A stretch of 50,514 bases of DNA from Betaproteobacteria bacterium HGW-Betaproteobacteria-18 (GTDB lineage Bacteria > Pseudomonadota > Gammaproteobacteria > Burkholderiales > Burkholderiaceae_C), in contig PHCO01000003.1 in NCBI GenBank assembly GCA_002842265.1, forward strand, positions 1 to 50,514, in the 5' to 3' direction. The position numbers and the translations under genes are program-made. This document shows, in pieces, positions 1 to 19,307 of the stretch. Numbering within the stretch: the first letter of the stretch is position 1; each line of letters starts with the position of its first letter. The notes below the pieces were generated by a model, which made no database searches, was not told the origin of the DNA, and saw nothing but the letters and a program-made list of their open reading frames with translations.

Positions 1-591
1 GTTTTCCAGCAAGGGGCAGGTGGCACCGAATGAGGTCGGGATGGCACTGATCAGCCAGTCCCCAACCTGGGAAACCGCCACAGTGCGGTTTCTTTTTGCC
101 CGGTCTTCGTGCCGGGTTTTTCTTTGCGTATCCGGGTCATGTGTGCTTGCCAAACCGGTCGCCGTGCTCGGTACGTCCGCAGTCCGATCAGTCGAACTGG
201 AGCTGCCGACCCGTTGCAGTCACTCCCGTCGCGGACTTCGCTGCCGAAAAGCAGTCGCTCCGCGCGTTCAGCTTCGTAGCTGGCACAGGGGCGACGGTTG
301 CGAGAACTGCTCGCCAAAGCAACGACTACGACGGTGCCTCGCAGTCATTTCGGGGTGGCCTCGAGCTGTGTAGTAGTAGCCCCGTCGTCATCCGAGGAGG
401 GCGGCATAGCCTGCGGCTGCCCTAGCGGTGATAAATCTAGCCGGGGCTCAAGATCACTCTTGGGAACTCTTTGGATTCTCCAACAACGTGGCGGCCGTAA
501 AGAAAGTCATCACCCATCCAGCGCTTTTCGCGCGCGATACCCGTCGGCAAATCCGCCCCTACGGTTGCCCGATCTCAGGCAAGCGAGGCGC
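1..591. other. Non-coding left flank
   Basis: No convincing gene was found in this stretch. Frame 1 could carry the last ten codons of an upstream gene ending at the TGA at 31-33, but this is too short to identify. Two terminator hairpins follow at 71-120. The remainder, about 120-590, is GC-rich intergenic sequence with several short open frames in every phase, none with a ribosome-binding site, a recognisable domain or consistent codon bias. Its style resembles the other repeat-rich gaps of this window. Confidence 0.5.
71..120 (+). terminator. Tandem intrinsic terminators
   Basis: GAAACCGC-cacagt-GCGGTTTC followed by TTTTT (71-97) is a perfect 8-bp stem with a T tract. Directly after it CCCGG-N8-CCGGG followed by TTTT (99-120) forms a second, shorter hairpin. 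Both would stop plus-strand transcription entering from the left, so a plus-strand gene probably ends at or before position 33. Confidence 0.75.
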
Positions 592-2583
592 TCACTTGGC
601 CGCCGCGACCTCTTTTCCACTGGTCGCAACGGGCTCGGAATCAAAGACACCTTCCAAGTATTTGGCGTAGTGCTCTTGCAAATGTTTGAGGGAGGCGCCC
701 TTGTCCGCTTGGTATTCGAGCCGCTCTTGGAAGAACTTCATGCGGCTTCTGTTCTCCGCCAACACCTGGCCCCAGGTCTTCACGAAGATGCAGACGTTGT
801 CCTTCTTGTGGATCAAGCCGGACTCGTCGGTCATGCGGAACTTCGCGTGCGGTCCGACATCGTCGCTGATGACCCAGAACACCCATGACACCTTGACGTT
901 GCGAAACCGCTGGTCATCCATGACCGAGGCGGCGTAGCCCTCGATCTGCGAAATCTCGTCGGTGTTGACCTTGACCTTCGGCGCCTTCAACTCGACCACC
1001 AAGTGAGTGATCGAATCCGTGTTGTGCCGCCGCGTGGACCGGGACAGCATCAAGTCAACGATTCCGCGCTCCTGCGAAACATGCTTGACCGGGGCGTCGA
1101 TGACGATGTCTTCCCCGAGAATTTTCTTGTGCGAGCGCAGAACCTCGGTCAGCGATTGGTCATCGACCGACAGCATGAAGTCCTCGCCGAACATCCAGCA
1201 GTTCTGGGCGACGATGCGATGCAACTGGCTGCGCTCTTTGAGCCGCTTCTTGGGCTCGGGATCGAACAGCACCGCCTCAATGCCGGTCAGGAACTTCAAT
1301 CGATCCGCCACGATCTTGGCGGAGCTGATGATCGACGACAGCGACACGTCGCGCAGCAGCTCGGCGAGCTCCTCCTGCTGGCGCTTTGGCAGCCGCAGCA
1401 CTTCGTTCAAGATGACCTGCAGCTCCTCGGGGCTCTTCTCGATCGCCTGCCGGAGCATCCGAAGCTGGAAAGACTTGTTCTGCGGGGCGGAGCTGCCGAA
1501 CTCGGGCAGATTCTTCGCGACGCTGACGGCCACGATCTCAAACACTTGCCGCTCGACCTCTTCCACGCGCGTGGTCGGATCGCCGTCGAAGGGATACACC
1601 TTCTCCGTCTTCCATTCCTCGACGTAGCTGCGCGCCTCCATGGCGGAGCGCTGCCGGAAGTAGTCCTTGATCGTCTTCTGGGCCTCGTCAATGGCCGCCA
1701 CGACCGGCGTCTGCATCTCCGCGAGGTCAACGGTCCCCTCCTTCTGCGCGACCGTCAGATAGGAGGATTCGAGATAGGCCGTGAACTGGAAGTCGCCGAT
1801 GTGAAATCGACGATCAACCTGCACCAGCGGGAAGCGCTTCTCGTTGCAGAGAAACAGAGCCCGGTTGGACAGCCCCTTCCACTCAACGATCTCGAGCCGG
1901 ACGGGATGCGTCTTTCCACCGGCTTCGATGTCGGCCAGGTTGATGGCCTTCCGGCTGGCGATCATTTGGGCCGGATCAATGCGCTTGCCGCCAATGGTCA
2001 CATTGACATCGGGATAGTCGGCCAAATAAAGGGCGAAGACTTCGGCCAATACGTGAATGCCGGCGTCGCTCACAAACGAGCGGAAATCCTTGTGGGGATC
2101 GGAAATCGTCAGGGTGACGCCAGTATCAGTCGGCTTTGAGACTTCAACCTCATCGGAGATATTCACATGGCGAATGTCGTTGGCCGACATCGTGATCGAA
2201 TACTTCCAAAGCTTCTCGTCGCGCTTGTATGTGACAGCCCATTCAGCGCGGGTTCCAATGGCGAACGCCTTGAACCGCCCGCGCCCCTCTTGGCCGTGCA
2301 AGAACCTTCCGGTTTCGGTGGAGCCTCCCGGCTTCTTCCATGACCCGCCGAGGCGCCGAAAGAACTCTGGTGCCCTTGCCTTGGGAATTCCGTTGCCATC
2401 GTCTCGGATGATGACTTCCGAGAGGGTATCCATCTCGTTGTGCCCAAACGAGACAGAAACTCGGCCGGCATCCGCGTCCAGGCCGTTCCAAATAAGTTCA
2501 GCCAAGGCCTGCACTGGCTTCGCGCGAGTGATTTTTTCTAAGAAGTCCGACTGGACCTCGACCGGATACTGCTGCTGGGCCAT
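592..2583 (-). CDS. GHKL ATPase fused to PD-(D/E)XK nuclease-like domain
   Basis: The 663-residue product has an Hsp90/GyrB/MutL-type ATP-binding domain at its N terminus. The N-box (ALAELIWNGLDAD, E29 and N33), the G1 box DDGNGI (61-66) and a G2-like GQEGRGR loop (97-103) are all visible. The C terminus has a segment resembling the Shedu DUF4263 nuclease: an LHRIVAQNCWMFGEDF-like start, then D510, then E531-L-K533, then Q546-x3-Y, a complete PD-(D/E)XK layout. The start was moved from 2736 to the ATG at 2583 because AAGGGAG lies just upstream and the GHKL domain begins there. The gene stands alone, with no methylase or helicase beside it. By analogy with single-gene nuclease defences it may be a nucleotide-gated nuclease acting on invading DNA; this role is inferred. 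The family match to DUF4263 is by eye. Confidence 0.72.
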   Translation of the reverse strand: MAQQQYPVEVQSDFLEKITRAKPVQALAELIWNGLDADAGRVSVSFGHNEMDTLSEVIIRDDGNGIPKARAPEFFRRLGGSWKKPGGSTETGRFLHGQEGRGRFKAFAIGTRAEWAVTYKRDEKLWKYSITMSANDIRHVNISDEVEVSKPTDTGVTLTISDPHKDFRSFVSDAGIHVLAEVFALYLADYPDVNVTIGGKRIDPAQMIASRKAINLADIEAGGKTHPVRLEIVEWKGLSNRALFLCNEKRFPLVQVDRRFHIGDFQFTAYLESSYLTVAQKEGTVDLAEMQTPVVAAIDEAQKTIKDYFRQRSAMEARSYVEEWKTEKVYPFDGDPTTRVEEVERQVFEIVAVSVAKNLPEFGSSAPQNKSFQLRMLRQAIEKSPEELQVILNEVLRLPKRQQEELAELLRDVSLSSIISSAKIVADRLKFLTGIEAVLFDPEPKKRLKERSQLHRIVAQNCWMFGEDFMLSVDDQSLTEVLRSHKKILGEDIVIDAPVKHVSQERGIVDLMLSRSTRRHNTDSITHLVVELKAPKVKVNTDEISQIEGYAASVMDDQRFRNVKVSWVFWVISDDVGPHAKFRMTDESGLIHKKDNVCIFVKTWGQVLAENRSRMKFFQERLEYQADKGASLKHLQEHYAKYLEGVFDSEPVATSGKEVAAAK

Positions 2584-2939
2584 GGCGAATCTCCCTTTTT
2601 GCCCATATTCTCGCTCGGATACGGTCTGCCATGGGTCAGGCGACGGCTGAGAGGCTGCTTCCAGGCAACTCATTCGATCCTGCGAAAGACGATTCAGGGG
2701 CGGAAGTTCCAGTTCACCCGAGCCGCGACCGGTCATTCGCAGCCCGGCGGCAGGCGCCGGCCGGCGAGTCCCCGGTCTCGAGGCTCAAGCGGTCGTAGCC
2801 AGCGGCCTGCATCGAATGACAGGTGATGGCTGCAGCGAACGTTCAGGCGGCCATGGGCGAATGACTCTGACCAGCCTTCAACCGACCTTGAGCAGCCAGA
2901 TCCCAGCGGCTGTTCGTGGCCGATCGCCGTCGCTGCATC
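2584..2939. other. Intergenic, no gene seen
   Basis: This is a GC-rich spacer between the KTSC gene and the GHKL gene. Apart from the ribosome-binding site next to 2583, no promoter, hairpin or coding frame stands out. Its texture (gcggtcgtagccagcggcc and similar) resembles the dispersed repeat DNA at 13.2 and 24.0 kb, but I could not establish a clear alignment. Confidence 0.4.
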
Positions 2940-3287: not shown

Positions 3288-3555
3288 AACGACCTCACAG
3301 ACATCACTCAATTCGAGCACACCGCATCGTAAGCGTTTTTCCTGGTGTCAGTCATCTTCGCGGGGTCCATCGCCACGAGGAAGTGAAGCTGGGGTAACAC
3401 GGCCAAGGCTCGGTTTACGCCACACGATTGCATCCAGAGGCCGTCGAAACACCCTCTATAGTTGACCTTCACTACGTGGGAACGCCCTGTTGTAGATGAC
3501 CGCATCGTGGAGAGGACCGTCGGCCCATCACGCCGCCCTCAAGGCCGGCACCCGG

Positions 3556-3895
3556 TGCCTATGCCGAGATCGCAACTATGTTGAATTCTTGGTCCGGCCG
3601 TTCGTACTGTCGAGGGGACGAGTGAACGACAAGCCCGGCGCTCCTCCACATAGTTTTCGTTCGCCGCCCATTGGCCTCAGCGGATGCAATGAGCTCCAAT
3701 GGGAACTGGACGACTGGTACCCCTGATACATGCACTCTGCAACGATGCAGTGACTGCGGGCCACACTGGTTCACCGCCTCATGGCGGAGACCACCTGAAC
3801 CGTGCCCCTGTCGCGGAACTATGCGCAGGTTATTGAGCTGCCTTGCGACGAAGGGTGTCATCAAACTTGTCATAGTTGCGATCTCGGCATAGGCA
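3556..3895. mobile_element. MITE-like element with 25-bp inverted ends
   Basis: TGCCTATGCCGAGATCGCAACTATG at 3556-3580 is matched by its exact reverse complement at 3871-3895, enclosing about 290 bp with no transposase. The size and perfect ends fit a miniature inverted-repeat element. I see no clear target-site duplication, so its status as a mobile element is inferred. Confidence 0.5.
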
Positions 3896-3924
3896 GCGTT
3901 ATGGAGATCTCTCCATAACGCTGC
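3893..3924. repeat. 32-bp palindrome
   Basis: GCAGCGTTATGGAGA, then tc, then TCTCCATAACGCTGC: two perfect 15-bp arms around a 2-bp centre. It abuts the right end of the MITE-like element. Each arm contains GCGTTATGG or CCATAACGC, the sort of core triplet seen in integron recombination sites, but the surrounding attC layout is absent. Confidence 0.7.
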
Positions 3925-4602: not shown

Positions 4603-5850
4603 TCAGCCGATCACGCCCTCAAAAAAGATCTTCCATTCGCCCCGCTCCCGTGCCCAATATTGGCGCTTCACTGGCCCGCGGATGTCGCCTTGCCGCAGTT
4701 CGGCGAACGTCATCAGGGTGACCTCGCTTTCTCGTTTCCACGCCAGGATCGACAGGTCCTTCAAGATCAAAAAGCGCCTACCCGCTGTCGCCAGTTCTCG
4801 CGCTTTGGCCTGGCCCCATTGCCGGAAATCGGTGCTTCCGCTGCGGAACTGTGGCGAATAAAACGCCATCACGGTCTTCAGGTCGGCTTGGGCACGCGCC
4901 CTGCTCCAGCGCTGAAGCAGTTCCCGGAATTCGTTGCGCCGGTTGGCCAGCGTCTGCGGCTGAACCCAATGGATTTCTTCCGCAATGATCACCGGTGTGC
5001 GTCGCGGCTCCAGGATGCTCAGCAAGGCACCCATGTCGTCGTTGGCGAGCGCGACGCAGCCCTCGGTGGCGTAGGGGCTGCGCGAATACGACGCCCTAGG
5101 TACACCGTGCAGCCAGATCCCACTACCGGTTTTGCCCAGACGGCGGTCATGCTCGTTGGGGTAGTTCAAGGGTAGCGCGCCCACTCCGTACAGCTCGTCG
5201 AGCTGGCTGTCGTCCAGTCGGCTGGTGATGTAGTACACCCCGAGCGGGGTCCGTAGATCGCCTTCAGTGCTTTTACCGAACCCAGCACGCCCGATGGAGG
5301 CGTAATGGCTGCGCAAGAGGTGCAACTGCCCATCGCGATGCTCGAACACATACACCCGCGAATGACTGGCATCCACCGCGACCACATGCCTCGTGTTGAG
5401 CGCGAGTTCCAGCACCTGCTGTGGCACGGCGCCAGGCGGTGGAAGCTCTCGCAGCGCGGCCAGGCGGCGTCGGGCCTCCTCGCGCAAGTCCCCCATCTCT
5501 GCACCCGATGCATCCAACCCTCTGGGAATTGCGCCAAACCCGTGTCGCGGCCCCGCGCTGGCCAGCAGCAGATCACCGTAGACGAGCTGCCCAAGCTGAA
5601 AATTGGGCACGCTGCGGGTCAGGGCCTCGGCCAAAGCCAGCGCGCGTCTGCGGTTGCCTCGGCCGATCGCGCGGTACACCTCAATCAAACGCGCCTCTGG
5701 CGATGCGGGCGACATGCCGGTGAGCGCAGAAACAGCAGCGCTGTAGCCGCCGAGCTGAGCCGTGGAGCTGGTTGGCCATACGGTGGTCGATGCCGAGGCA
5801 AGCATGCCCGCCACGAGCTGTCGGCGTTCAGGAGAAAATGAAAACTTCAC
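4603..5850 (-). CDS. L,D-transpeptidase, YkuD family, with C-terminal NTF2-like domain
   Basis: This 415-residue periplasmic enzyme of the ErfK/YbiS/YcfS/YnhG type would make 3-3 peptidoglycan cross-links or attach proteins to the wall. An N-terminal arginine-containing signal region (residues 1-30) is followed by a helical linker. The YkuD domain (about 153-285) carries the catalytic motif with H248 and C265 (HGVP...TEGCVAL). After residue 290 comes a segment ending in QYWARERGEWKIFFEGVIG, typical of the SnoaL/NTF2-like tail attached to many proteobacterial L,D-transpeptidases. It lies at the downstream end of the minus-strand metal/redox run, 59 bp after ynfA, and may be read from the same transcript. 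The ATG at 5850 fits the signal sequence. Confidence 0.88.
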   Translation of the reverse strand: MKFSFSPERRQLVAGMLASASTTVWPTSSTAQLGGYSAAVSALTGMSPASPEARLIEVYRAIGRGNRRRALALAEALTRSVPNFQLGQLVYGDLLLASAGPRHGFGAIPRGLDASGAEMGDLREEARRRLAALRELPPPGAVPQQVLELALNTRHVVAVDASHSRVYVFEHRDGQLHLLRSHYASIGRAGFGKSTEGDLRTPLGVYYITSRLDDSQLDELYGVGALPLNYPNEHDRRLGKTGSGIWLHGVPRASYSRSPYATEGCVALANDDMGALLSILEPRRTPVIIAEEIHWVQPQTLANRRNEFRELLQRWSRARAQADLKTVMAFYSPQFRSGSTDFRQWGQAKARELATAGRRFLILKDLSILAWKRESEVTLMTFAELRQGDIRGPVKRQYWARERGEWKIFFEGVIG

Positions 5851-5909
5851 GGTTCAATCAATAGAGGATCGGGCGCAAAACGCGCGACGTGCGACGCAAA
5901 GCTGCTGCC

Positions 5910-6227
5910 TCAACGCGGCTGGAAAACGATGATGCCCATGCCGACCAGCGCCACACCGGCACCTGCCAGATCCCAGATGGACGGACGGATGCCGTCCACC
6001 GCCCACAGCCAGAGGATGGCGGCACCGATGTAGACCCCGCCATAGGCCGCGTACACGCGCCCGGACGCGGCTTCGTGCAGCGTCAGCAACCAGGCAAACG
6101 CGGCCAGGCTCAAGGCCGACGGCAACAGCCACCACACCGACCCCTGCTGCTTGGCCCACAGCCAAGCCCAATAGCAGCCGGCGATTTCGGCCAGTGCGGT
6201 GATCGCGTACAAAAGCAAAGTCTTCAT
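5910..6227 (-). CDS. ynfA: YnfA/UPF0060 family small membrane transporter-like protein
   Basis: The 105-residue protein has four predicted membrane helices, starting [20 protein letters not shown]. The conserved family stretch ([19 protein letters not shown]) and the end [10 protein letters not shown] match the YnfA family, which is SMR-like and linked to small-molecule efflux. Its length equals the family norm. YnfA genes are often carried on mercury, cadmium and cobalt-zinc islands; here it follows the SCO1-like gene by 26 bp in the same direction, so it is likely part of the same operon. The substrate is not known from the sequence. Confidence 0.9.
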
Positions 6228-6253
6228 GGGAACCCGGTTCGATGAGCTCTGCT

Positions 6254-6904
6254 TCAGCGGCTCTTGAGCAGCGTTTCGATGTCCGCAGCGATCACGCTGG
6301 CCTCCGTGCCGTAGTTGGAGTACAGCCGCGCGCTCCCTGTCGTGTCAAAGATGTATTTACCGGCCGAGTGGTCCATGGTGTAAGAAGTTGGCGTCTTGCC
6401 GTCCACCTTCTTGAAATACACCTTGAAGTCGGCGGCCACGGTCTTGAGTTCGGCGGGTTCGGGGCGCAGTGCCAGGAAGCTCGGATCAAAGGCCGCCATG
6501 TAGTCCTTCAGCAAAGGCAGCGTGTCGCGCTCCGGGTCCACCGTGATGAACAGCACCTGCAACAAATCGCCCCGCTCACCGAGCAAGCGCTTGACCTCGG
6601 CCATGGTGGTCATGGAGGTGGGGCACACGTCCGGGCACTGTGTGAAGCCAAAGAAGATCACCACGATCTTTCCCTTGAAGTCCCCCAGGGTACGGGTCTG
6701 ACCCAGGTGATCGGTGAGCCGCAGGTTCTTGGCGAAATTGGCACCGGTGATGTCGACACTCTGGAAGCTCGCCGCCTCGGGTGAACACGCCGCAAGGGTC
6801 AGGACCGTGGCGGCCGCAGCCGCCGTCACAAAACCACGGCGCGACAGGGGGTGGTTGCTCGGTTGAATGCGCAGCGTTGGCATGGCATCGGGTCCTGCAC
6901 TCAT
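6254..6904 (-). CDS. SCO1/SenC family copper-binding lipoprotein
   Basis: This 216-residue thioredoxin-fold protein carries the copper site of the SCO family: C90-PDV-C94 followed by a distal histidine in YTMDHSAG. It has a TAT-like SRRGF signal and a lipobox LAAC at C40, so it is probably an outer-face lipoprotein of the inner membrane. SCO proteins deliver copper to cytochrome oxidase or act as thiol reductants. The start at 6904 overlaps the stop of the upstream DsbA-like gene as ATGA, so translation is probably coupled; the internal ATG at 6883 is an alternative. Its place beside DsbA-like and DsbB-like proteins suggests a thiol-redox relay within the metal island. Confidence 0.9.
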
Positions 6905-7557
6905 TTCTTGACCTTGGCCACTTCTTCGGCGACCAGGGTCGCGAGCTGCTCAGGTCCAAAGCTCGGGAGGCCACGGCCGTTGACAAAGAAGGTCGGGGTC
7001 TTGGTCACTTCCAGCGCGGTCAGGTCTTCCAGATCTTGCTGGAGCACGGCGTCCACTTCGGGCTTGGCCGCGTCTGCGCGCGCCTGCTGCAGATCCAGGC
7101 CCGCATCTTCTGCCGCTTTGAACGCCAGATCGATGTTGGGTTGCCCATGGCTGGCCCATGCGGGCTGAGCGGCCAGCACCGCTTCGAGCACCTGCGGGTA
7201 TTTGCCCTGGCGTTTGGCGGCCTCCAGCAGGGCCACCACATGGTCCGATCCCGCATGGAACGGCGCGTAGCGCAGGACCAGCCGGACATCGTTCGGGTAC
7301 TGCTTCATCAGGTCCTTGACGATGGGGTAGAACGCACGGCAGGTCTCGCAGGCGGGGTCAAAGAATTCGACGATGGTCACGGGAGCGCTCTGCGGACCAA
7401 AGACCGGTGAATGCATGCGGACCAGACGGCTGTCTTGCGTGCTGACCTTCTCCATTTGCGAGTTCTGCACCCGCCGCTGGTAGTTGTACATGCCGAAGGC
7501 AAAGGCCGCGACAACGATGCCCAGCAGGATCGAGACGGTGAGTTTTTTGGAGGTCAT
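6901..7557 (-). CDS. DsbA-like periplasmic thiol oxidoreductase
   Basis: A 218-residue thioredoxin-fold protein has an N-terminal membrane anchor (residues 6-23) and the active site C70-ETC-73 inside FDPACETCRAFYP. The cis-proline loop is TKTPTFFVNG near residue 185. The insertion and overall layout match the DsbA/BdbD group of disulfide oxidoreductases. The start ATG at 7557 overlaps the stop of the DsbB-like gene (ATGA), so the two are translationally coupled and most likely work as a pair. The long ORF upstream (to 7872) is a frame overlap with dsbB and was discarded. Confidence 0.9.
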   Translation of the reverse strand: MTSKKLTVSILLGIVVAAFAFGMYNYQRRVQNSQMEKVSTQDSRLVRMHSPVFGPQSAPVTIVEFFDPACETCRAFYPIVKDLMKQYPNDVRLVLRYAPFHAGSDHVVALLEAAKRQGKYPQVLEAVLAAQPAWASHGQPNIDLAFKAAEDAGLDLQQARADAAKPEVDAVLQQDLEDLTALEVTKTPTFFVNGRGLPSFGPEQLATLVAEEVAKVKK

Positions 7558-7970
7558 TTGGGGGTCCTTCTCAGAAAGAGCGTGAGCAAGAGGGTGATGG
7601 TGAAAAAAGCCACCAGGGACAGCCAGGGAATCTGAATGCCGTTGAGGATTTCCAGCTTCTGGTCGGCACACGAGACGCCGGCGCTGCAGGGAATCCAGGA
7701 CTTGGGAATGAGGCCAGCGACCAACAGGGTGTGGTAGGCCGCCATGAGCAGGCCGCCGACCGCCAGAGGCAGGGCGTAGACCGCGCCGCGCCGGTCGTCG
7801 CTGAAGCAGGCCATGCCCAGCACGATGGCCAGCGGGAACATGAAGATGCGCTGATACCAGCAGAGCTGGCACGGCACCATCAGCATCACTTCACCGATGA
7901 ACAAGGCACTGGCCGTGGCCATGGTGGCGACCAGCCAGGCCGCCAGAAGCATCAACCAGTTGAGTTTCAT
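7554..7970 (-). CDS. DsbB/BdbC-like disulfide bond formation protein
   Basis: The 138-residue, four-helix membrane protein has the two cysteine pairs of the family: C34-QL-C37 after the first helix and C94/C101 in the second periplasmic loop (WIPCSAGVSCAD). The WYQRIFMFPLA segment is typical. It would reoxidise the neighbouring DsbA-like protein using quinone. It is coupled by 4-bp overlaps both to the DsbA-like gene downstream and to lspA upstream, so the four genes form one tight operon. Confidence 0.9.
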   Translation of the reverse strand: MKLNWLMLLAAWLVATMATASALFIGEVMLMVPCQLCWYQRIFMFPLAIVLGMACFSDDRRGAVYALPLAVGGLLMAAYHTLLVAGLIPKSWIPCSAGVSCADQKLEILNGIQIPWLSLVAFFTITLLLTLFLRRTPK

Positions 7971-8491
7971 TCGGCGCCTTTCGGGGTGGATGCGTCAGCG
8001 GTGGGGCGCCTGGCGGGTCGTAGCGACAACAGCGCCCAGGCCAGGACAGCGCTCACGACGAAGACGTCGGCCAGGTTGAAAGCGGGCCAGTGCAGGGCGC
8101 GCCAGTGAAGGTCCAGAAAATCCACCACCGCGCCGTTCTGGATGCGGTCAATCAGGTTGCCGCTGCCACCGGCCACGACCAAGGCACCGATCCACCGTTC
8201 CATGGGTTCGGCGTGGCGGGTCAAACAGACAAAGCTCACCGGCACGACCACCAACACACCCAATGCGATGAAGAAGTACCGCTGCCAACCGCCGGCGTCG
8301 GCGAGCAGGGAGAACGCGGCCCCGGTGTTGAGCACATGCACCAGATTCAGCCAGCTGGTGAACTCGATGCCCGTGCCCAGCGGGATGGTGGCGGCGAACC
8401 AGGCCTTGCTGCCCTGATCGGCCAACACCAGCAAAAGAACGAATGCCAGCCACGCCCATCGGGGGTGGCGGCCTAACCAACTTGAATACAT
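7967..8491 (-). CDS. lspA: Lipoprotein signal peptidase II
   Basis: A 174-residue membrane protease of the LspA family. It shows the first box LADQGSKAWF, the second box LNTGAAFSLL, and the catalytic aspartates in GNLIDRIQNGAVVDFLD and PAFNLADVFVV. It cleaves prolipoproteins in the inner membrane. The ATG at 8491 is preferred over the GTG at 8497 because GGGGTG precedes it. LspA copies are common passengers of CadR/CadA and CDF metal islands and are probably additional to a housekeeping gene elsewhere; that last point is inferred. Two nearby products here have lipoboxes (the SCO1-like protein and the 14983 gene). Confidence 0.92.
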   Translation of the reverse strand: MYSSWLGRHPRWAWLAFVLLLVLADQGSKAWFAATIPLGTGIEFTSWLNLVHVLNTGAAFSLLADAGGWQRYFFIALGVLVVVPVSFVCLTRHAEPMERWIGALVVAGGSGNLIDRIQNGAVVDFLDLHWRALHWPAFNLADVFVVSAVLAWALLSLRPARRPTADASTPKGAE

Positions 8492-8622
8492 AAGCACCCC
8501 GGAGTGGGTTAGATGACCTGTACCAGCTCGGTGGGCTGGCGCCTTGTTGCAAAGGGATCAGGTGGGGATCACCGGGACGCAGCGCACGACAGCGAGGCCG
8601 TCGCGGGGAATCGCCGCCCTGA

Positions 8623-8976
8623 TCAGCTCAGGGCACGCCACTGCGGGCGTTCGGGCACATCGAAGGGGGCCGATCTCGGTTGGGCGGAGCGGCCCAAGTC
8701 CCATGACGCCGAAGCCATTGCCCCCACACCGGCTTGAGCGTCTGGTGCTGCGATGGAGCAACTCGCATGGCAGGTGCCGCAATCGGCATCGGCCACGCTC
8801 GCCGCCGTCTGGCTGGTCGCGGCATCGGCATCGCTCTGGCCGCGGTGCTCATGGGCGTGGTGCCCGGCGTGGGATGCTTCCGATCCACGTTCGTGCTGGC
8901 AGAACGCCCCCATCGCAGCCCAGGAGAACTGCAAAGGCATCAACACCAGCAAAAGGACCACGAGCCACGAACGCAT
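8623..8976 (-). CDS. CzcI-like His/Cys-rich metal-resistance protein
   Basis: A 117-residue exported protein opens MRSWLVVLLLVLMPLQFSWAA, a signal sequence that is highly characteristic of CzcI and related proteins of cobalt-zinc-cadmium operons. The mature part is rich in histidine and cysteine (HAGHHAHEHRG, DCGTCHASC), fitting periplasmic metal binding. The start at 8976 was chosen over 9015 because the signal peptide begins there. It sits between DUF3703 and lspA on the same strand. The exact role of CzcI-type proteins is poorly defined; regulation or metal buffering has been proposed. Confidence 0.72.
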   Translation of the reverse strand: MRSWLVVLLLVLMPLQFSWAAMGAFCQHERGSEASHAGHHAHEHRGQSDADAATSQTAASVADADCGTCHASCSIAAPDAQAGVGAMASASWDLGRSAQPRSAPFDVPERPQWRALS

Positions 8977-9011
8977 GGAGGGATTGTAAAAGCGGACAGC
9001 CTGCAACGGAG

Positions 9012-9404
9012 TCATCGCGTCCCGTCCACGGCCTGGGCCACCTGCTCAATCAGCGCAGCGATGTCCTCGCGGATCGGCATGGTCTGGAACGCGCTGATGT
9101 TGGAACGCCCGGCGTTGCCGAGCGGCAACCGGCCCGTCAGATGACCCAAGGGCACCAGCAAAAGTCGGAGCAGCTGACCCAGGACCTCTCGCCCGTCGCG
9201 GGTTTCCCAACCCAGGGCCAGCATCTGGGCATGCGTAACCAGGTGCGGCCTCAGTCGGGTTTGTCCCAGCACATGGGCCGCCTCCAGCAGCAGCCAGCGC
9301 TGGGGGAGATCCGCAAGCGGCGCGACCCGCTCCCGCTGCATCAGTTGCATGAACAAGCGGGCGTCAAAAGCGGGCGCTGATGTGGCGTCAGTGCGAGTGG
9401 CCAT
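9012..9404 (-). CDS. DUF3703 family protein
   Basis: About 130 residues. The core (FDARLFMQLMQRERVAPLAD, then WLLLEAAHVLGQ, THAQMLALGW, GNAGRSNISAF and the end MPIREDIAALI) matches the DUF3703 family, which is repeatedly found between CDF exporters and other genes in proteobacterial metal islands. No enzymatic motif is visible. The start is placed at the ATG at 9404, which overlaps the end of the CDF gene by 17 bp; an ATG further downstream would also keep the domain. Soluble, cytoplasmic, function unknown. Confidence 0.78.
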   Translation of the reverse strand: MATRTDATSAPAFDARLFMQLMQRERVAPLADLPQRWLLLEAAHVLGQTRLRPHLVTHAQMLALGWETRDGREVLGQLLRLLLVPLGHLTGRLPLGNAGRSNISAFQTMPIREDIAALIEQVAQAVDGTR

Positions 9405-10050
9405 GACCATGCTCATGAACGTGGCCATCGTTGGCGCCCAGCTCGCCCTGCGCCTGGAGCCAGACTTGCCAGCCTCCCCGCACGGCCAGAATGGCCATGA
9501 GGGTGGCCACCAGCAGGTCGGGCCAGGCCGTGCCGGTGCCGAACACACCCAGCGCCGCACCCATCACGGCAATGTTGCCGATGGCGTCGTTGCGGGTGCA
9601 GAGCCACACGCTTCGCATGTTGGCATCGCCCTCCCGGTAGGCGTAAAGCATCCAGGCCACGGCCAAGTTGGCACTAAGCGCGAGCACGCCGACGGCCCCC
9701 ATGGTCATCGCGTCGGGCACCTGGCCGCTCCAGAGACTCCAGAGCGCCCGGCCCAGGACAAACAGACCAAACGCCACCATGCTGACCGCCTTGAGCATGG
9801 CGGCGCGAGCGCGCCAGGCCAGCGCCGCCGACAACACCGCCAGCGACACCCCGTAGTTCAGCGCGTCACCACCAAAATCGATCGCATCGGCCAGCAGCGA
9901 AACCGAGCCCGAGCGGTAGCCGGCGGCCAGTTCCACCATCAACATGGCGGCGTTGACCAGCATCGCGATCCAGAGGATGCGGCGGTAGCGCGGCAGGTTG
10001 ATCAGCGCCGCAGGTTTCGGGGTTTCGTGTTCACAACAATGGGCAGACAT
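9388..10050 (-). CDS. CDF family divalent cation exporter
   Basis: A 220-residue cation diffusion facilitator of the short type has six predicted helices. The conserved helix-2 metal site is LLADAIDFGGDALNYG, and a matching helix-5 site lies in TRNDAIGNIAVMG. There is a cysteine/histidine N terminus (HCCEHE) and a histidine-rich tail (HVHEHGHGHSH). It would export Zn, Cd or Co in exchange for protons. It is the first gene of the minus-strand operon, directly behind the MerR-type promoter at 10075-10105, with AAAGGAAA upstream of the ATG. The short form lacking a large cytoplasmic domain is typical of the CadR-linked group. Confidence 0.9.
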   Translation of the reverse strand: MSAHCCEHETPKPAALINLPRYRRILWIAMLVNAAMLMVELAAGYRSGSVSLLADAIDFGGDALNYGVSLAVLSAALAWRARAAMLKAVSMVAFGLFVLGRALWSLWSGQVPDAMTMGAVGVLALSANLAVAWMLYAYREGDANMRSVWLCTRNDAIGNIAVMGAALGVFGTGTAWPDLLVATLMAILAVRGGWQVWLQAQGELGANDGHVHEHGHGHSH

Positions 10051-10074
10051 GGGGATTTCCTTTCGAGTGATTTG

Positions 10075-10105
10075 ATTGGAAACCCTGTAGCAGCTACAGT
10101 GTCAA
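10075..10105 (-). promoter_or_regulatory. CadR-type promoter/operator for the CDF operon
   Basis: Read on the minus strand: TTGACA (10105-10100), a 19-bp spacer CTGTAGCTGCTACAGGGTT, then TCCAAT (10080-10075). The over-long 19-bp spacer with a CTGTAGC/GCTACAG dyad is the signature of MerR-family activated promoters. The start of the CDF gene lies about 25 bp downstream of the -10 element. Confidence 0.85.
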
Positions 10106-10132
10106 CACCTTCATCACGACACAGGTATCCCC

Positions 10133-10570
10133 ATGCGCATCAAGGAACTGAGCCAGGCCACAGGCGTGGATGTGGAGACGATCCGCTTCTACGAAAAAGA
10201 ACACCTGCTGCCCGCGCCCGCTCGCTCGGACAATGGCTACCGCGACTACGACGCCCTACACCTGGAGCGGCTGTCCTTCATCCGCCACTGCAGGGCGCTG
10301 GACATGCCCTTGTCGGACGTCAAGCGCCTGCTGGCGCTCGTGGACGACCCGGCGCGGCACGGCCTCGACGTGGACCATCTGGTGGACGAACAGCTCAGCC
10401 GTGTGCGGGCGCGGCTCAAGAGCATGCGCGCGCTGGAGCGGCAGCTGATGCAGCTGCGCTCGCGCTGCAAGGGCGAACACGAAGGCGGCGAGTGCGGCAT
10501 CCTGCAAGAGCTGGTGGCCGCAGCGCACGGCGAGTCATGTGCATGCCATCCTTTTTCAGCACAACCTTGA
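10133..10570 (+). CDS. cadR: Cd(II)/Pb(II)-responsive MerR regulator
   Basis: A 145-residue MerR-family regulator opens MRIKELSQATGVDVETIRFY with a winged helix-turn-helix, then a long dimerisation helix (about 80-115). Its effector region has cysteines placed as in CadR/PbrR: C77-like within FIRHCRAL, a CKGEHEGGECG loop, and a C-terminal CACH tail. Such proteins repress and then, on binding Cd or Pb, twist a 19-bp-spaced promoter into an active form. It is transcribed away from the CDF operon, with the operator in the shared 82-bp gap, and very probably also acts on the second, similar promoter in front of the P-type ATPase gene. Confidence 0.92.
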   Translation: MRIKELSQATGVDVETIRFYEKEHLLPAPARSDNGYRDYDALHLERLSFIRHCRALDMPLSDVKRLLALVDDPARHGLDVDHLVDEQLSRVRARLKSMRALERQLMQLRSRCKGEHEGGECGILQELVAAAHGESCACHPFSAQP

Positions 10571-10842
10571 TGAAACTTACTACAGACCGAAGTCAGTCTG
10601 GCCCTGATGCGTCGATGGCAGGCAAGGCAGTAAGCAAGCCCAGGACCCAAGCCTACGGTTGCAGCATTCACTACGGTGTGGTGGATGCCGTGAAGAACTT
10701 GTTCAAGCCTGCTGGTTAGTCTCGCAAGCTCAGGGGCTAGGCTTTTGTCAGGTGGGTATTCACACGTGGTCCTCAGCAAGCTCAAGCTGGTGCCAGCGCT
10801 GCCACTTGACATTGAGGTCACTACAGGGTTTCCAATGGGGCC
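10571..10842. other. cadR-cadA intergenic region
   Basis: This spacer of about 270 bp carries no gene with a convincing start. A short frame around 10650-10720 (tacggttgcagcattcactacgg) looks protein-like but has no context and may be a remnant. The functional element is the MerR-type promoter at its right end (10806-10836). Confidence 0.5.
10806..10836 (+). promoter_or_regulatory. CadR-type promoter/operator for the P-type ATPase
   Basis: TTGACA (10806-10811), a 19-bp spacer TTGAGGTCACTACAGGGTT, and TCCAAT (10831-10836). The right half CTACAGGGTTTCCAAT is identical to the promoter of the CDF operon, while the left half of the dyad is degenerate. The annotated ATG begins only 7 bp after the -10 element, so the transcript would have almost no leader. 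Confidence 0.82.
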
Positions 10843-13110
10843 ATGAAACAAGAAGCCACCACCTCTCCAGGCGTTGACACCTGCTGCTCCGCTGGCTGCT
10901 CCAGCCCTGCCACACCAGCAAATACCGTAGCCAGCAACAGGGAGCCGGGCAAACTTTTTCGAATTGCGACGATGGACTGCAGCGCCGAGGAAGCCGAGAT
11001 CCGCCGGGCGCTGGAACCTCTGGATGGAATCCGCTCATTGGGCTTCCAGCTGGGCGCGCGTACCCTCAGCATCGATGCAACAGAGCGCGCGTATCCCTTG
11101 GCGCTGGCTGCTATTCGCAAAGCGGGCTTCGACCCGCAGCCCGTGGCCGCAACGATCGGTACCCAAGGGGGGGAGGCAAGCGAGCATGCCGAAGGCGACG
11201 ACCATGGACATGGGTTTGCTGGCGGCATGTCTCGACTGGTGGTCGCGCTTGTACTTGCCACGGGAGCGGAATTGCTCTCATTCTTTGCACCCGATCAGAT
11301 AGCTTGGAAGATTGCCGGCATGGCCGTCGCCGGGCTGGCCATCTGGCTGGCTGGGATCGACACTTACAAAAAGGGCTTCACGGCGTTGCTGCGCGGCAAA
11401 CTCAACATCAATGCACTGATGTCGGTGGCCGTCACAGGTGCGTTCCTCATCGGCCAGTGGCCTGAGGCCGCCATGGTGATGGCCCTCTACGCCATTGCCG
11501 AGCTGATCGAGGCCAAGGCCGTGGACCGAGCCCGCAACGCGATCAAGGGTTTGCTGGAACTGGCGCCAGAAGATGCCCTGGTGCTCGGCTCCAGCGGAGC
11601 TTGGACCACAACGCCGGTCGCTGCTGTGGCCATTGGCGCGACCGTGCGCATCAAACCCGGTGAGCGCGTCCCACTCGACGGCACGGTGACCAAGGGGAAC
11701 GGGGCCATCAACCAGGCCCCGGTGACTGGCGAAAGCATTCCCGTGGACAAAGCTCCCGGGGATCAGGTTTTCGCTGGCACCATCAATGAGACCGGTGAAC
11801 TGGAGTTCCAGGTCACCGCCTTGTCGAGCAACACCACCCTGGCAAGGATCATTCAAGCTGTTGAGCAGGCGCAAGGCACGCGCGCACCGACGCAGCGCTT
11901 TGTCGATCGGTTCGCCGCCATCTACACGCCTGCAGTCTTCGCCATTGCCGTAGCGGTGGCGTTTCTCACACCGTTTCTGATGGGTCTGACCTGGCTGGAG
12001 GCAGTGTACAAGGCGCTCGTGCTGCTGGTGATCGCCTGCCCTTGCGCGTTGGTCATCTCCACACCTGTCACGGTGGTCAGCGGACTGGCAACCGGCGCTC
12101 GCCGCGGAATCCTGATCAAGGGCGGAACCTACCTGGAGGACGCCCGGCTCCTGAAGGCCGTTGCGCTGGACAAAACAGGCACCATTACCGAGGGCAAACC
12201 CAAGCTGGTGCAGTGGCGAGTCTGGGATGGGTGGGATGAAGCAGTGGCTCAGCAGTTGGCCGCAAGCTTGGCCGGCCGTTCCGATCACCCGGTCTCCAAG
12301 GCGATTGACCAGGGCCTTGAAGTCCAGGGCCCGGAGGCCCAGAACTTCAAGGCTTTGCCTGGGCGCGGTGTCGAAGCCGTGATCGATGGTGTGCGCCTGG
12401 TGCTGGGGAATCACCGACTGATCCATGAGCAGGGACTGTGCACCCCTGAACTGGAGGCGGAACTGGCCATCCACGAAAAGCAAGGCCGCACGGTGACCCT
12501 CCTGGCTGACGACTCCCGCGTTCTCGCTCTGTTTGCTGTCGCTGACACCATCCGGGAGACATCCAGACAGGCCATCGTCGATCTCAAGGCAATGGGGGTG
12601 ACCTTGGTCATGCTGACCGGCGACAACACCGCTACTGCCAAGGCCATCGCTGCACAAGCCGGCATCGAAGATGCACGCGGCGACTTGCTGCCCGAAGCCA
12701 AGCTCGATGCCATCAAGCAAATGCAAGAGCGCTATGGCGCCACCGGCATGACCGGCGATGGCATCAACGATGCACCGGCATTGGCTCAGGCCGACATCGG
12801 CTTCGCCATGGGTGGTGCAGGTACCGACACGGCCATGGAAGCGGCCGACGTGGTCATCATGAACGACAACCTACAGCGAGTGGCCGAGACGGTACGACTG
12901 TCCAGGCGCACCCACGCTGTGCTATGGCAGAACATCACTTTGGCGCTGGGAATCAAGAGCGTGTTTCTGGTGCTGGCGGTGTTCGGCACCGCGACCATGT
13001 GGATGGCGGTTTTTGCGGACATGGGCGCGAGCTTGTTGGTGGTCGCCAACGGCCTGCGGTTGCTTCGTGGAACAGAAGTGGAGCCAACTTCCAAGCCAAA
13101 CCGCTCGTAA
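10843..13110 (+). CDS. cadA: Heavy-metal P1B-type ATPase (Cd/Zn/Pb exporter)
   Basis: A 755-residue transporting ATPase. The N terminus has a CCSAGC metal-binding motif (14-19), an HMA-like fold with only one cysteine (TMDCSAEE, about 43-50), and a short HG-rich run near 125. Membrane helix 6 has the CPC motif of Zn/Cd/Pb pumps (IACPCALVIS, near 397-406). The phosphorylation site is D443 in DKTGTITEG, and the hinge motif GDGINDAPA is at 638-646. It pumps Cd, Zn or Pb out of the cytoplasm using ATP. The ATG at 10843 has no ribosome-binding site and lies at the expected transcription start, suggesting leaderless translation. A 24-bp hairpin-like sequence follows the stop (CAACAGCT...AGCTGTT) without a T tract. 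Confidence 0.93.
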   Translation: MKQEATTSPGVDTCCSAGCSSPATPANTVASNREPGKLFRIATMDCSAEEAEIRRALEPLDGIRSLGFQLGARTLSIDATERAYPLALAAIRKAGFDPQPVAATIGTQGGEASEHAEGDDHGHGFAGGMSRLVVALVLATGAELLSFFAPDQIAWKIAGMAVAGLAIWLAGIDTYKKGFTALLRGKLNINALMSVAVTGAFLIGQWPEAAMVMALYAIAELIEAKAVDRARNAIKGLLELAPEDALVLGSSGAWTTTPVAAVAIGATVRIKPGERVPLDGTVTKGNGAINQAPVTGESIPVDKAPGDQVFAGTINETGELEFQVTALSSNTTLARIIQAVEQAQGTRAPTQRFVDRFAAIYTPAVFAIAVAVAFLTPFLMGLTWLEAVYKALVLLVIACPCALVISTPVTVVSGLATGARRGILIKGGTYLEDARLLKAVALDKTGTITEGKPKLVQWRVWDGWDEAVAQQLAASLAGRSDHPVSKAIDQGLEVQGPEAQNFKALPGRGVEAVIDGVRLVLGNHRLIHEQGLCTPELEAELAIHEKQGRTVTLLADDSRVLALFAVADTIRETSRQAIVDLKAMGVTLVMLTGDNTATAKAIAAQAGIEDARGDLLPEAKLDAIKQMQERYGATGMTGDGINDAPALAQADIGFAMGGAGTDTAMEAADVVIMNDNLQRVAETVRLSRRTHAVLWQNITLALGIKSVFLVLAVFGTATMWMAVFADMGASLLVVANGLRLLRGTEVEPTSKPNRS

Positions 13111-14239: not shown

Positions 14240-14986
14240 ATGCGGCCTATATTGCTATTATCTATAGTGCTAGCTTTGACTAGCGCTGCACAAGCCCAGA
14301 ACTTATTGCGAGTATCTGAGGATGCGTGGACACAGCTACTGCCTGATGAAAGAACTGACATCCAAGAGCGGTTCCTAGTTGAACCAGTTTCGTCTAGTCT
14401 TTTTGGGAAAATTATAGACAACCAAGGCCTAGACAGATCCATTCAGGGAAACAATGCAGGGAGCGCATTAGGGGGATCAATTGCTAGTGCTGCTTATATC
14501 GATAACGCATTTCGACCAAATGGCAACTTCTCCGCGAAAGAACACTTGGCAGCCGTGATCGTTGGCGGCGTATTGGGTTCAGCGCTAAACCGAGCGCCAG
14601 TTAGTCAGTTTCAATTTCGCTATGCAGTTCAAGACGGTCGGGGTGGAGTAAGTTATCATGACGTGATCTCACAAGATCCATTCCGTCATCCGGTTGGCAT
14701 TTGTGTAAACCTCCCTGCCGTAACCCTCGCTCAAAACCAAGAGCTGTGCAGCCAAACAGCTGAAATATTGAGATCGACCTATCTTCCGGGCTATACATCC
14801 AGACCTCTAGTCAGCCACTCCAGCTCGGCCAAACATTCTGTGCGAGCGTCTCCTCAAGTGGCTGTCCAAGAAGATGCAAGTAGGAATGAGTCGAGTTCTA
14901 AAGTGCTCTGCAAAATTGGAACTCTGTCACCAGTGACTGCAAGTCGAGAAAAGTGTGAATCTATCAATGGAAATATCATAGAATGA
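14240..14986 (+). CDS. Hypothetical exported protein
   Basis: A 248-residue product of unknown family. A clear signal peptide (MRPILLLSIVLALTSAAQAQ) is followed by a mature part with a glycine/alanine-rich stretch near residues 72-110 (NNAGSALGGSIASAAY, AAVIVGGVLGSAL), resembling glycine-zipper surface proteins. There are two cysteine pairs in the later half, and the C terminus (VLCKIGTLSPV...) is polar. The codon use is AT-richer than the metal island. Its last four bases overlap the next gene (ATGA), so the two form an operon. No function can be assigned; envelope location is inferred. Confidence 0.6.
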   Translation: MRPILLLSIVLALTSAAQAQNLLRVSEDAWTQLLPDERTDIQERFLVEPVSSSLFGKIIDNQGLDRSIQGNNAGSALGGSIASAAYIDNAFRPNGNFSAKEHLAAVIVGGVLGSALNRAPVSQFQFRYAVQDGRGGVSYHDVISQDPFRHPVGICVNLPAVTLAQNQELCSQTAEILRSTYLPGYTSRPLVSHSSSAKHSVRASPQVAVQEDASRNESSSKVLCKIGTLSPVTASREKCESINGNIIE

Positions 14987-15573
14987 AATACAAAATCTTA
15001 ATATCAATTGCCACCTTGTTTCTCGCTGGCTGTGGTACAAACTTCATCTATAACATAGGCAACAAGACCTACGATGATCCTGATGACTTCATTAAAGCGG
15101 GAGAGGCGAATAATCTCGCAGTAAAGCGTGCAATCCTTCCACTTCAGAAGAAACTCACAGATAAAAAGCTAATTATTGTTTTCGCAAGCAGAGATGCGAT
15201 TGTGTCTAATAGTACGGCACAGGCTGAGGCTCGGGTGAAGAAGAAGCTGAATGAAGACTTTATCGAAAATCATGAGACGATGGCAACATATACTGTCAAC
15301 GGGGTGAAGAATATGTACGAGGCTGCTAGCGTAAAAGGTATATATTCTCACGTCGTTTACAGAGAAACCAATACGCTGGCGAACTCATTAGCACCCGCCG
15401 CTGATTATGATACGCTAGCTTGGTATCAGGAAGCTGGCGGCGTTGGCCAGTGGTTCTATTCCAGTGCGAAATATGGAAAACAATTATTTGTCTTTGATCA
15501 AACTTCAAATGAAGCTAGCGTAAAGACTGAAGCTTTCCTCTCTGCCCTTCAAGCACTTGCAATTCGTGACTAG
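14983..15573 (+). CDS. Hypothetical lipoprotein
   Basis: The 196-residue product has a lipobox LAGC after a short hydrophobic signal (MKYKILISIATLFLAGCGTN), so it is probably anchored in the outer membrane. The mature protein is a mixed alpha/beta sequence containing KKLIIVFASRDAIVSN and a long middle region with aromatic residues; no known domain was recognised. It is coupled to the preceding exported protein through an ATGA overlap and is followed by a strong terminator, so the pair is a self-contained two-gene unit. Possibly a surface complex; the role is unknown. Confidence 0.65.
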   Translation: MKYKILISIATLFLAGCGTNFIYNIGNKTYDDPDDFIKAGEANNLAVKRAILPLQKKLTDKKLIIVFASRDAIVSNSTAQAEARVKKKLNEDFIENHETMATYTVNGVKNMYEAASVKGIYSHVVYRETNTLANSLAPAADYDTLAWYQEAGGVGQWFYSSAKYGKQLFVFDQTSNEASVKTEAFLSALQALAIRD

Positions 15574-15601
15574 TTATTGGTTGTTAGTTATATATCAAGC
15601 G

Positions 15602-15635
15602 GAAGCCTCTCGAAGTAATTCGCGAGGCTTTTTCT
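15602..15635 (+). terminator. Intrinsic terminator
   Basis: AGCCTCTCGAA-gtaa-TTCGCGAGGCT followed by TTTTTCTT forms an 11-bp stem with one mismatch and a tetraloop. It ends the 14240-15573 operon, 30 bp after its last stop. Confidence 0.85.
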
Positions 15636-15638
15636 TGA

Positions 15639-15872
15639 TTATTTATATTTTCCAGAGGGCATGCTATCGACCAGTTGCAGCCATGCCATCGAAGGAAAAA
15701 TCGCACCCAATGCGAGTAAGACTTTTCGGAACTGAGGACCGCCACGTCGGACGACTGTAACCTCCTCGACAACGGTCATTGATGCCACCGCGCTGCCGGG
15801 TGAGCCGATGACCTCGTCGTACCAAGTACCGAAGTCCCAACTCGCCGCAGCGACTAACGGCACTCGCTGCAC
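15639..15872 (-). CDS. Doubtful small membrane protein or fragment
   Basis: A 77-codon frame reads like protein in its middle (DFGTWYDEVIGSPGSAVAS, then TVVEEVTVVRRGG) and ends with a hydrophobic helix (VLLALGAIFPSMAWL). There is no good ribosome-binding site at the listed start, and no family was recognised. It may be the C-terminal part of a gene cut by the repeat DNA at 15.9 kb, or chance coding. Confidence 0.25.
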   Translation of the reverse strand: MQRVPLVAAASWDFGTWYDEVIGSPGSAVASMTVVEEVTVVRRGGPQFRKVLLALGAIFPSMAWLQLVDSMPSGKYK

Positions 15873-16262
15873 AGCCGAACTTGTAAAATCGAAGGTCGCT
15901 TGAGGCTGGTTGCGGCCGGTCAGGTGTTCAGGGCCCGATCACAGCCGCCGCTCGAAACGGCCATTCCTCGTCTGCCTGGCGACCGACCGTTGCACCTCCA
16001 GCAGCGGCCACTCAACAGCGTTGGGCCAGACGAGATGCCGAGCGACTCCTGCCCGCCAAGACGACCGGCTCTTCACGACCCGTACCGGTCATTCAAGGAG
16101 CCAACGCGAAGCGGTCACTGTGTGATAAGGGATGCCGGGTTTCGTGCTTTACTTGTACAAAAATCAGATCGGCGTGCGCAACACGTCCTGAATATCCGCC
16201 CAGTTTATTCCGCAGGCTCTGCGGAAGGCATCGCATAAACGTGCAAGAAGAACGGTTCCGCA

Positions 16263-16649
16263 GTGGCGAATTACTTCAAAAGAAGCGAGCGAAAGCTCTT
16301 TGTGACCTGTCTCGTCGCAACGGTTGCTGCGGGAGCTGCGTCCGTTCTGGCTATTGGTTTATCGCATGGGCTGGCCGGGAAGTTGACTGCAACCTCCGGA
16401 CTTTTGGCGACTCTGACTGGCGTCGTTCAGCTCGAGGTCAGTGGTCTTTTCACGAAGATCATGGAGATCTACGGGGACGACACAAAGTATCCGTACGGCC
16501 CACCGTCATACATCACGCGAGAAGTCATCGATGACCCCGATGCTCCTGTTCTCAGCTGGATTCGGACCTATGCGTTTTTCTCGCCTGCTACTGGCTTCTG
16601 GCTTATCGTCCTGGGCACGCTCATTCAGGTTCTCGCGGTATGGCTATAG
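16263..16649 (+). CDS. Small integral membrane protein, unknown
   Basis: A 128-residue product starts at GTG 16263 (no better start is available). Three hydrophobic helices are apparent: about 11-32, 40-62 (AGKLTATSGLLATLTGVVQLEVSGL) and 108-127 (GFWLIVLGTLIQVLAVWL). A polar loop lies between them (MEIYGDDTKYPYGPPSYIT). No family was recognised. It lies within a unit ending in the attC site at 16669-16737, only 19 bp after its stop codon. That is the normal position for an integron cassette gene, so a cassette-borne membrane protein is the best description. Confidence 0.6.
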   Translation: MANYFKRSERKLFVTCLVATVAAGAASVLAIGLSHGLAGKLTATSGLLATLTGVVQLEVSGLFTKIMEIYGDDTKYPYGPPSYITREVIDDPDAPVLSWIRTYAFFSPATGFWLIVLGTLIQVLAVWL

Positions 16650-16668
16650 CAAGCAAAGCGCGCACGAC

Positions 16669-16737
16669 ACCCAACCCTGCATTGCAGCCGACCCTGGCCA
16701 GTTGCGCTGGCCGGTCGGCAGAATTCAAGCGTTATGA
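16669..16737 (+). other. Integron attC recombination site
   Basis: R'' ACCCAAC (16669-16675), L'' GCCGACC, a central GGCCAG-TTGCG-CTGGCC stem, L' GGTCGGC, then AATTCAAGC and the core GTTATGA (16731-16737). Folding the two halves gives the usual attC hairpin with a few unpaired bases. The last 20 bases closely resemble the ends of well-known class 1 cassette sites. The length of 69 bp is normal. Orientation is plus, so cassettes would read left to right. Confidence 0.8.
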
Positions 16738-17678
16738 GTCGCGCATCTAGACCCCCAGTTCCCGCCGCTGTTCGGCGCGCCATCCTAGTTGAGGCCGGAC
16801 ACAAGTGCGCCATTCCGCGGTGTGGGCATGGAGACGTGGATATCCACCACATCGTTCCGTGGGAGACCTGCGGTAAGCATGAATACGCGAACTTGATATC
16901 TCTTTGCCCAAACTGTCATCGCCGTGCACATAAAGGTGAGATCGACCGTAAGTCACTTCATCTCTACAAGGCTGCTTTGGTGGCCTCATTCCAAGTCGCC
17001 GGTGAAGCGCTGTTCTCGGCTCCAGCAGTGGAGATCAAGCGACGCATCTACGAGGTGGATTCGGCGAGCGCGGAATGCAGTTTCAGCTTCGAGTACCCCG
17101 ACTTTGTCAATCCAATGGCTCGAATAGTTTCCAAAAACATTGAGGCCTGGGGGCTCGAACTCTTGGCGACGTTTCGTCAGTCACAGGATGCGGAACACCG
17201 TCTACACCCAAACAAACCAGATTACCCGATCTGGTGGCTTACTGGCTCCTACCAAGTCTCCCGACGAGATACGCAAGTTATCAGCGTTCGATATGACATT
17301 GAGCAAATGGCCTTTGGAGCTGCCCATCGGTCGTACGAGACAAGAGTGCAAAACTTCTTCGTCGACCCATTTTCGCCAATGCTGCTTGAGGAACTTCTCG
17401 CTTCCCCTCGGGCGATTGAACCTTTGGCAGAAGCAGTCAGACGAAAGCTGCTATCAGGTGGAGACTTAGACCCAACTCACGTCGAGATTGGTACGGCGCC
17501 GGACCCGGATCTTTTCTCGAGGTTCGTAGTCGATCAGTACGGCCTTACCTTCATGTTCGATCCGTATGAGGTTGCGTGCTACGCCCAAGGACCGCAGCAC
17601 GTAAGTCTCTCATTTGAGGAGTTGGCTAAGCTATTCAAACGAGAGCAACTTTACGTCCTTACTCCACCAGACTCATAA
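16734..17678 (+). CDS. HNH endonuclease-domain protein
   Basis: A 314-residue product has an N-terminal HNH nuclease (about 20-70): cysteine pair C-x4-C (KCAIPRCGHG), the HNH signature VDIHHIVPW, then NLISLCPNCHRRAHKG. The C-terminal 240 residues are not recognised and may sense or bind a partner. The ATG lies within the core GTTATGA of the preceding attC site, and the stop TAA lies within CTCATAAC, the exact complement of GTTATGAG. The gene therefore fills the whole cassette, which is common in integron cassettes. No methylase partner is adjacent. A restriction or defence role is possible but inferred. Confidence 0.82.
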   Translation: MSRASRPPVPAAVRRAILVEAGHKCAIPRCGHGDVDIHHIVPWETCGKHEYANLISLCPNCHRRAHKGEIDRKSLHLYKAALVASFQVAGEALFSAPAVEIKRRIYEVDSASAECSFSFEYPDFVNPMARIVSKNIEAWGLELLATFRQSQDAEHRLHPNKPDYPIWWLTGSYQVSRRDTQVISVRYDIEQMAFGAAHRSYETRVQNFFVDPFSPMLLEELLASPRAIEPLAEAVRRKLLSGGDLDPTHVEIGTAPDPDLFSRFVVDQYGLTFMFDPYEVACYAQGPQHVSLSFEELAKLFKREQLYVLTPPDS

Positions 17679-17722
17679 CAGCAAAGGCGTGCCCTGGGAC
17701 GTTTTCTACAACCTCGTTAACG
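17672..17722 (+). other. Degenerate attC-like site
   Basis: CTCATAAC at 17672-17679 is the perfect complement of the GTTATGAG that begins the HNH unit, as expected of R''. A core-like GTTAACG lies at 17716, itself complementary to GGTTAAC at 18348. The inner arms do not pair well and the length (51 bp) is short, so this is a decayed or atypical site. Confidence 0.4.
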
Positions 17723-17744
17723 GCGGCTTTTGCGCATGCACAAA

Positions 17745-17831
17745 GACCGCTCCTGGCCGGGACTGCCAGTTCGCGGTCAAGTCCGGCAGCGGTCCTTGGT
17801 CATGCACCGGATCGAAAGATCGGTGTCGACG
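17745..17831 (+). repeat. Palindromic intergenic repeat, copy 1
   Basis: GACCGCTCCTGGCCGGGACT, then a 15-nt loop, then AGTCCGGCAGCGGTC: an imperfect hairpin, followed by a tail ending GTGTCGACG. Related copies lie at 18497-18583 and 21325-21376. Confidence 0.7.
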
Positions 17832-17891
17832 GCCAGGAACATAGCGAGCCGACCCTGATCAGGCACCCGAACCTCACCTAGAACGATCCAC

Positions 17892-19300: not shown

Positions 19301-19307
19301 GGTGAAA

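Follow-up and report, generated by a model that had tools for sequence, protein, structure and literature searches.

The window analysed here, a 50,514-nt stretch of a Betaproteobacteria bacterium HGW-Betaproteobacteria-18 contig, carries at 592..2583 on the minus strand a paraMORC3-type gene that encodes a GHKL ATPase fused to a PD-(D/E)XK nuclease (663 aa). The active sites of both domains are conserved together, the gene stands alone at most loci of its family, it has recently been transferred by itself, and its relatives are carried on plasmids and in phages. We consider it likely that the gene encodes a horizontally mobile, single-gene nuclease of the paraMORC3 or GHKL-"Shedu-like" kind, which would be gated by ATP and act against phages and other invading DNA. 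This architecture has been known since 2008 under the name paraMORC3 (PMC2292703); the window gene is thus a further, poorly annotated example of it and not a new type of candidate.

Domain architecture

The open reading frame starts with an ATG at 2583 and its stop codon ends at 592; an alternative in-frame start further upstream would give a protein of 714 aa, and homologues favour the 663-aa start. Residues 1–235 (1879..2583, minus strand) form a GHKL ATPase domain that continues into an S5-like domain, as indicated by Pfam (HATPase_c_3, 5.8e-13, over the cut-off) and Foldseek. In a full-length AlphaFold model based on a 63-sequence alignment (mean pLDDT 87.9, pTM 0.57), the S5-like domain follows the GHKL domain as an alpha/beta segment at about residues 205–273, modelled with moderate confidence, and the N-terminal half resembles TRAP1, MutL and MORC (E 1e-12 to 1e-9), with Foldseek alignments to the three spanning 320–440 columns. 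The pTM of 0.57 makes the relative placement of the domains uncertain. The ATPase had been called Hsp90-type, but by sequence it is closer to MutL and MORC than to Hsp90. Residues 274–440 (1264..1764, minus strand) are modelled as a long helical middle region, a candidate clamp or dimer arm.

The nuclease domain comprises residues 442–622 (718..1260, minus strand). When modelled separately (pLDDT 87, pTM 0.84), it matches the modification-dependent enzyme MspJI (Foldseek E 7.7e-5) and McrC (E 0.008), with AspBHI likewise weaker than MspJI, so that the model places it in the restriction-type PD-(D/E)XK fold. Its best Pfam match is HSDR_N_2 over residues 476–552 (5e-5), which at 23.8 bits lies slightly under the cut-off of 25. 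A search of the PDB with the sequence profile of this domain gave zero matches, so its nuclease relatives were found by fold comparison only. The fusion of a GHKL ATPase to a restriction-type nuclease, read from the sequence in the first-pass annotation, is therefore borne out by Pfam, conservation and Foldseek alike, the latter including the match of the separately modelled C terminus.

Co-conservation of the two active sites

Both catalytic centres were found as they had been described from the sequence. On the ATPase side, ELIWNGLDAD (residues 29–38) begins with the N-box ELIWN (2485..2499), which holds the putative catalytic E29 and the Mg/ATP-binding N33 and is invariant in 99 homologues. 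It is followed by DDGNGI around D61–G65 with the invariant G1 box D61-x-G63-x-G65 (2389..2403), and by the glycine-rich lid GQEGRGR (residues 97–103, 2275..2295), in which G97, G100, G102 and R103 do not vary. On the nuclease side, E450 (1234..1236) precedes the D510-x20-E531-L-K533 layout (D510 at 1054..1056, E531-L-K533 at 985..993) and the Q546-xxx-Y550 motif (934..948); all of these positions are on the minus strand.

Among 99 non-redundant relatives, E29, N33, D61, G65, G100 and R103 of the ATPase and E450, D510, E531 and K533 of the nuclease are 100% conserved, and Q546 reaches 99%. Alignments of homologues show P535, Y550, W463 and W604 to be likewise invariant; conservation was read from alignments of 17, 63 and 116 sequences. 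The ATPase N-box served as the pattern for the homologue search, and the conservation of E29 and N33 is thus partly selected, whereas that of the nuclease residues is not. The nuclease motifs, including the ExK that had been singled out for a conservation check, are therefore not a chance match. The E-to-K spacing is 504 in the window protein and ranges from 496 to 519 across its clade.

Mobility and distribution

The gene is shared between genomes with flanks of about 290 bp on its upstream and about 50 bp on its downstream side, as a unit spanning 536..2878 at whose ends nucleotide identity stops. This unit shows 98.6% nucleotide identity to a locus in Comamonadaceae bacterium SURF_20, 95.3% to one in Paracidovorax oryzae and 88.5% to one in Ottowia thiooxydans; a further, partial copy (L055) is 98.4% identical. 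No other window DNA is common to these Comamonadaceae loci within up to 8 kb on each side, which indicates that the mobile unit is the gene with these flanks (~2.3 kb) and that the gene has recently been transferred alone between Comamonadaceae. Its occurrence is patchy: any match at all is found in only 4 of 101 related genomes, and besides the genome of origin just one has a strong full-length match. A search for an empty insertion site in 60 relatives revealed no homologous counterpart of the 2.9–4.6 kb flank except for short repeat-like matches, and no tRNA attachment site was found within the window.

The family comprises 527 loci recovered with a single search pattern. Relatives are found on 47 plasmids, 16 of them conjugative, on 55 IMG/VR contigs and in two Pasteurella phages, where they are inserted among tail genes. 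In the family tree, phyla are mixed and viral contigs interleaved. The accessory setting suggested earlier for the window gene is supported.

The contig that carries the gene also encodes TraC, TraG_N, TraU, TraI_2 and DUF3438 proteins of an integrative conjugative element (ICE), and probably belongs to a cargo-bearing ICE. The conjugation genes lie in 24000–50514, among them TraC_F_IV at 31692–34859, with a TraC 64% identical to that of a Comamonas aquatica plasmid. The contig begins only 591 bases from the gene, which itself may or may not belong to the cargo. The region 4606–13107 looks like cargo and is similar in content to a lead/cadmium resistance module; it encodes an L,D-transpeptidase, SCO1/SenC, a DsbA-like thioredoxin, a heavy-metal P-type ATPase and signal peptidase II (lspA). 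Several low-GC3 genes (0.38–0.6) are found in 14240–23642, some without a Pfam match and one encoding an HNH/DUF3298 protein, and this block contrasts with the high-GC3 genes around it. The MITE-like element noticed in the first-pass annotation is present at 3553–3898, with 28-nt inverted arms that are 96% complementary and 290 bp apart; it occurs once in its own genome, and short similar ends are found in one related genome (G005).

Gene neighbourhoods of the family

In line with the single-gene organisation assumed at first, at 47 of 76 genomic loci the family member is flanked on neither side by a same-strand gene within 100 bp. Defence genes were repeatedly observed close to family members: DRT2 and a LlaMI-type restriction-modification (R-M) system on pP62BP1, an adjoining HsdR, an abortive-infection family protein, toxin-antitoxin genes and, in one genome (G131), a canonical Shedu (SduA_C 1.2e-27) that converges on the family member. 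On Phaeobacter plasmids (L036:1076-7989), a type ISP R-M gene and the start of the family member share 4 bp, which hints at an operon and, for that branch, at a gene product that might act as functional partner. A PADLOC scan matched 376 families among 139 first neighbours compared to 162 among 141 farther genes, counts that are inflated by redundant R-M models. Near and far genes thus do differ, as an enrichment near defence genes would have it, but any single defence type is common to only 3–4 of the 139 first neighbours, and we regard the enrichment as modest and as weak support for a defence role.

Proposed function and alternatives

By analogy with MutL, MORC and Hsp90, the GHKL-S5 module would bind ATP and probably dimerise via its N termini, and the dimer together with the helical middle region may close as a clamp around DNA. 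A feature of invading DNA would then trigger ATP binding or hydrolysis, and this would license cleavage of that DNA by the PD-(D/E)XK domain (E450/D510/E531/K533). The defence role, and DNA as the target, are suggested by VcSduA, a tested protein of the same architecture that needs both active sites (PMC12137116); the anti-phage role put forward in the first-pass annotation thus appears likely by analogy.

A narrower version of this proposal concerns the clade defined by an HSDR_N_2-like nuclease and an E-to-K spacing of 496–519. This clade might be a restriction system of its own, separate from Shedu as well as from BbrUII-type enzymes: GHKL-gated and partner-free, it would use an ATP-driven DNA clamp to sense a structural feature of invading DNA, would have no self-protection by methylation, and would escape current defence-finding models. 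We put this forward tentatively and find it rather doubtful.

Alternatively, the protein could be a BbrUII/HgiDII-like type II restriction enzyme that cuts a specific site protected by a cognate DNA methyltransferase. These enzymes (NCBIfam NF050001) likewise combine a GHKL ATPase with a nuclease at similar length, and their model matches the ATPase part of the window protein at 6.6e-10; however, the window protein scores 38.2 bits, far below the full-length cut-off of 550. PADLOC REase_II models give weak matches in 11–14 of 17 members, and a few clade members adjoin type I or ISP R-M genes. A sister clade (L193:1195-3171 on the minus strand, H44, H45, H54 and H59) points in the same direction: the genes of its GHKL-nuclease proteins, which have a sub-threshold SduA_C match, repeatedly overlap or adjoin those of DNA cytosine methyltransferases, also on haloarchaeal plasmids. 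In the window, on the other hand, no methyltransferase is adjacent to the gene, the copy common to several genera travels without one, and the predominance of solo loci also speaks against a cognate partner, so that we consider such an enzyme unlikely here. The L193 branch is the likelier neighbour of BbrUII-type enzymes, and perhaps also of VcSduA.

A nuclease that serves mobile elements and not anti-phage defence of the host proper, by competition between elements, exclusion of plasmids or ICEs, or superinfection exclusion by prophages, would also fit the presence of family members on plasmids and in phages and the conjugative-element genes on the window contig. We rate this as improbable, given the many chromosomal copies, the defence-gene neighbours and the protection against phages by the tested analogue VcSduA (PMC12137116), but such a role and a host anti-phage role overlap and are not exclusive. 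A MutL-analogous GHKL nuclease in DNA or mismatch repair, to which the MutL-like ATPase and the solo genes could point and which has been raised as an alternative for standalone paraMORC3 (PMC2292703), is highly improbable, since a gene so unevenly distributed, recently transferred between lineages and carried on mobile elements is unlike housekeeping repair.

Under the favoured reading, a mobile anti-phage nuclease, the family offers a simple one-protein case in which to study the gating of a nuclease by a GHKL clamp of the MutL/MORC/Hsp90 type. Although the family is large and mobile, most of its genes bear only the annotation "ATP-binding protein". The PADLOC (2023) and NCBIfam (2026) libraries contain no specific model that the window protein matches convincingly, so the family is probably undercounted in defence inventories. 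In the DefensePredictor paper (PMC13092281), the HATPase domain appears only in the abbreviation list.

Comparison with known systems

Canonical Shedu (SduA, PF14082) is likewise a single-gene PD-(D/E)XK nuclease, but its N-terminal domain is unrelated to that of the window protein, and the window nuclease has MspJI and McrC as its top Foldseek matches instead. The Shedu types are reportedly defined by Gu et al. 2025. SduA_C does not match the window protein up to E 10 nor any of 17 aligned relatives, and a scan of the proteins of its own genome, along with 229 genomes of the class, did not pick up the gene; the PADLOC SduA model matches one of 17 members, at 0.02. By hhalign, the catalytic D and ExK of the nuclease profile do line up with those of eight Shedu-type sequences (probability 87%, E 4e-6). 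Because SduA_C fails and only profile-profile comparison aligns these residues, the domain appears to be at most a remote Shedu relative without a recognisable DUF4263. Thus, the earlier label "Shedu-like" may hold in the sense of a distant kinship, but DUF4263 does not match and HSDR_N_2 and MspJI/McrC fit better; the resemblance to DUF4263 is real, yet Pfam and PADLOC models are not sensitive enough to call it.

The closest published description is that of paraMORC3, defined by Iyer, Abhiman and Aravind in 2008 as GHKL and S5 domains followed by a C-terminal RE-fold domain with an E-D-ExK signature (PMC2292703). The window protein has the same GHKL, S5 and restriction-fold layout, in which E-D-ExK corresponds to E450-D510-E531xK533, and we found no clear difference, the two being likened through the published description rather than a list of sequences. 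ParaMORC3 genes are sporadic, laterally mobile and prevalent in proteobacteria, and for the subset that stands alone Iyer et al. allowed a role in DNA repair (PMC2292703).

VcSduA of V. cholerae (GHKL-Shedu, type I-D) shares with the window protein the single gene, the GHKL N terminus and the PD-(D/E)XK C terminus, and its mobile island and widespread homologues (about 1.2% of genomes, PMC12137116) parallel the window family. Its nuclease is assigned to DUF4263, whereas the window nuclease fails that model, and its E-to-K spacing is 530 compared to 504 here. Since 530 falls outside the 496–519 of the window clade, VcSduA is probably a different branch, judged by spacing and not by sequence. 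None of 177 genomes of Vibrio, the genus with L091, contained a protein identifiable as VcSduA, and no L193 relatives were found in viral contigs by a VcSduA-like search; L193 itself scores 24.5 bits with SduA_C compared to a cut-off of 27. Adams et al. (2025) equate the architecture of VcSduA with both paraMORC3 and Shedu type I-D, and showed that this single GHKL-PD-(D/E)XK gene confers phage protection on E. coli and V. cholerae (PMC12137116). Protection was lost upon mutation of the GHKL glutamate (E27A) or the nuclease lysine (K557A), and growth curves revealed protection at all MOIs, which suggests direct restriction (PMC12137116).
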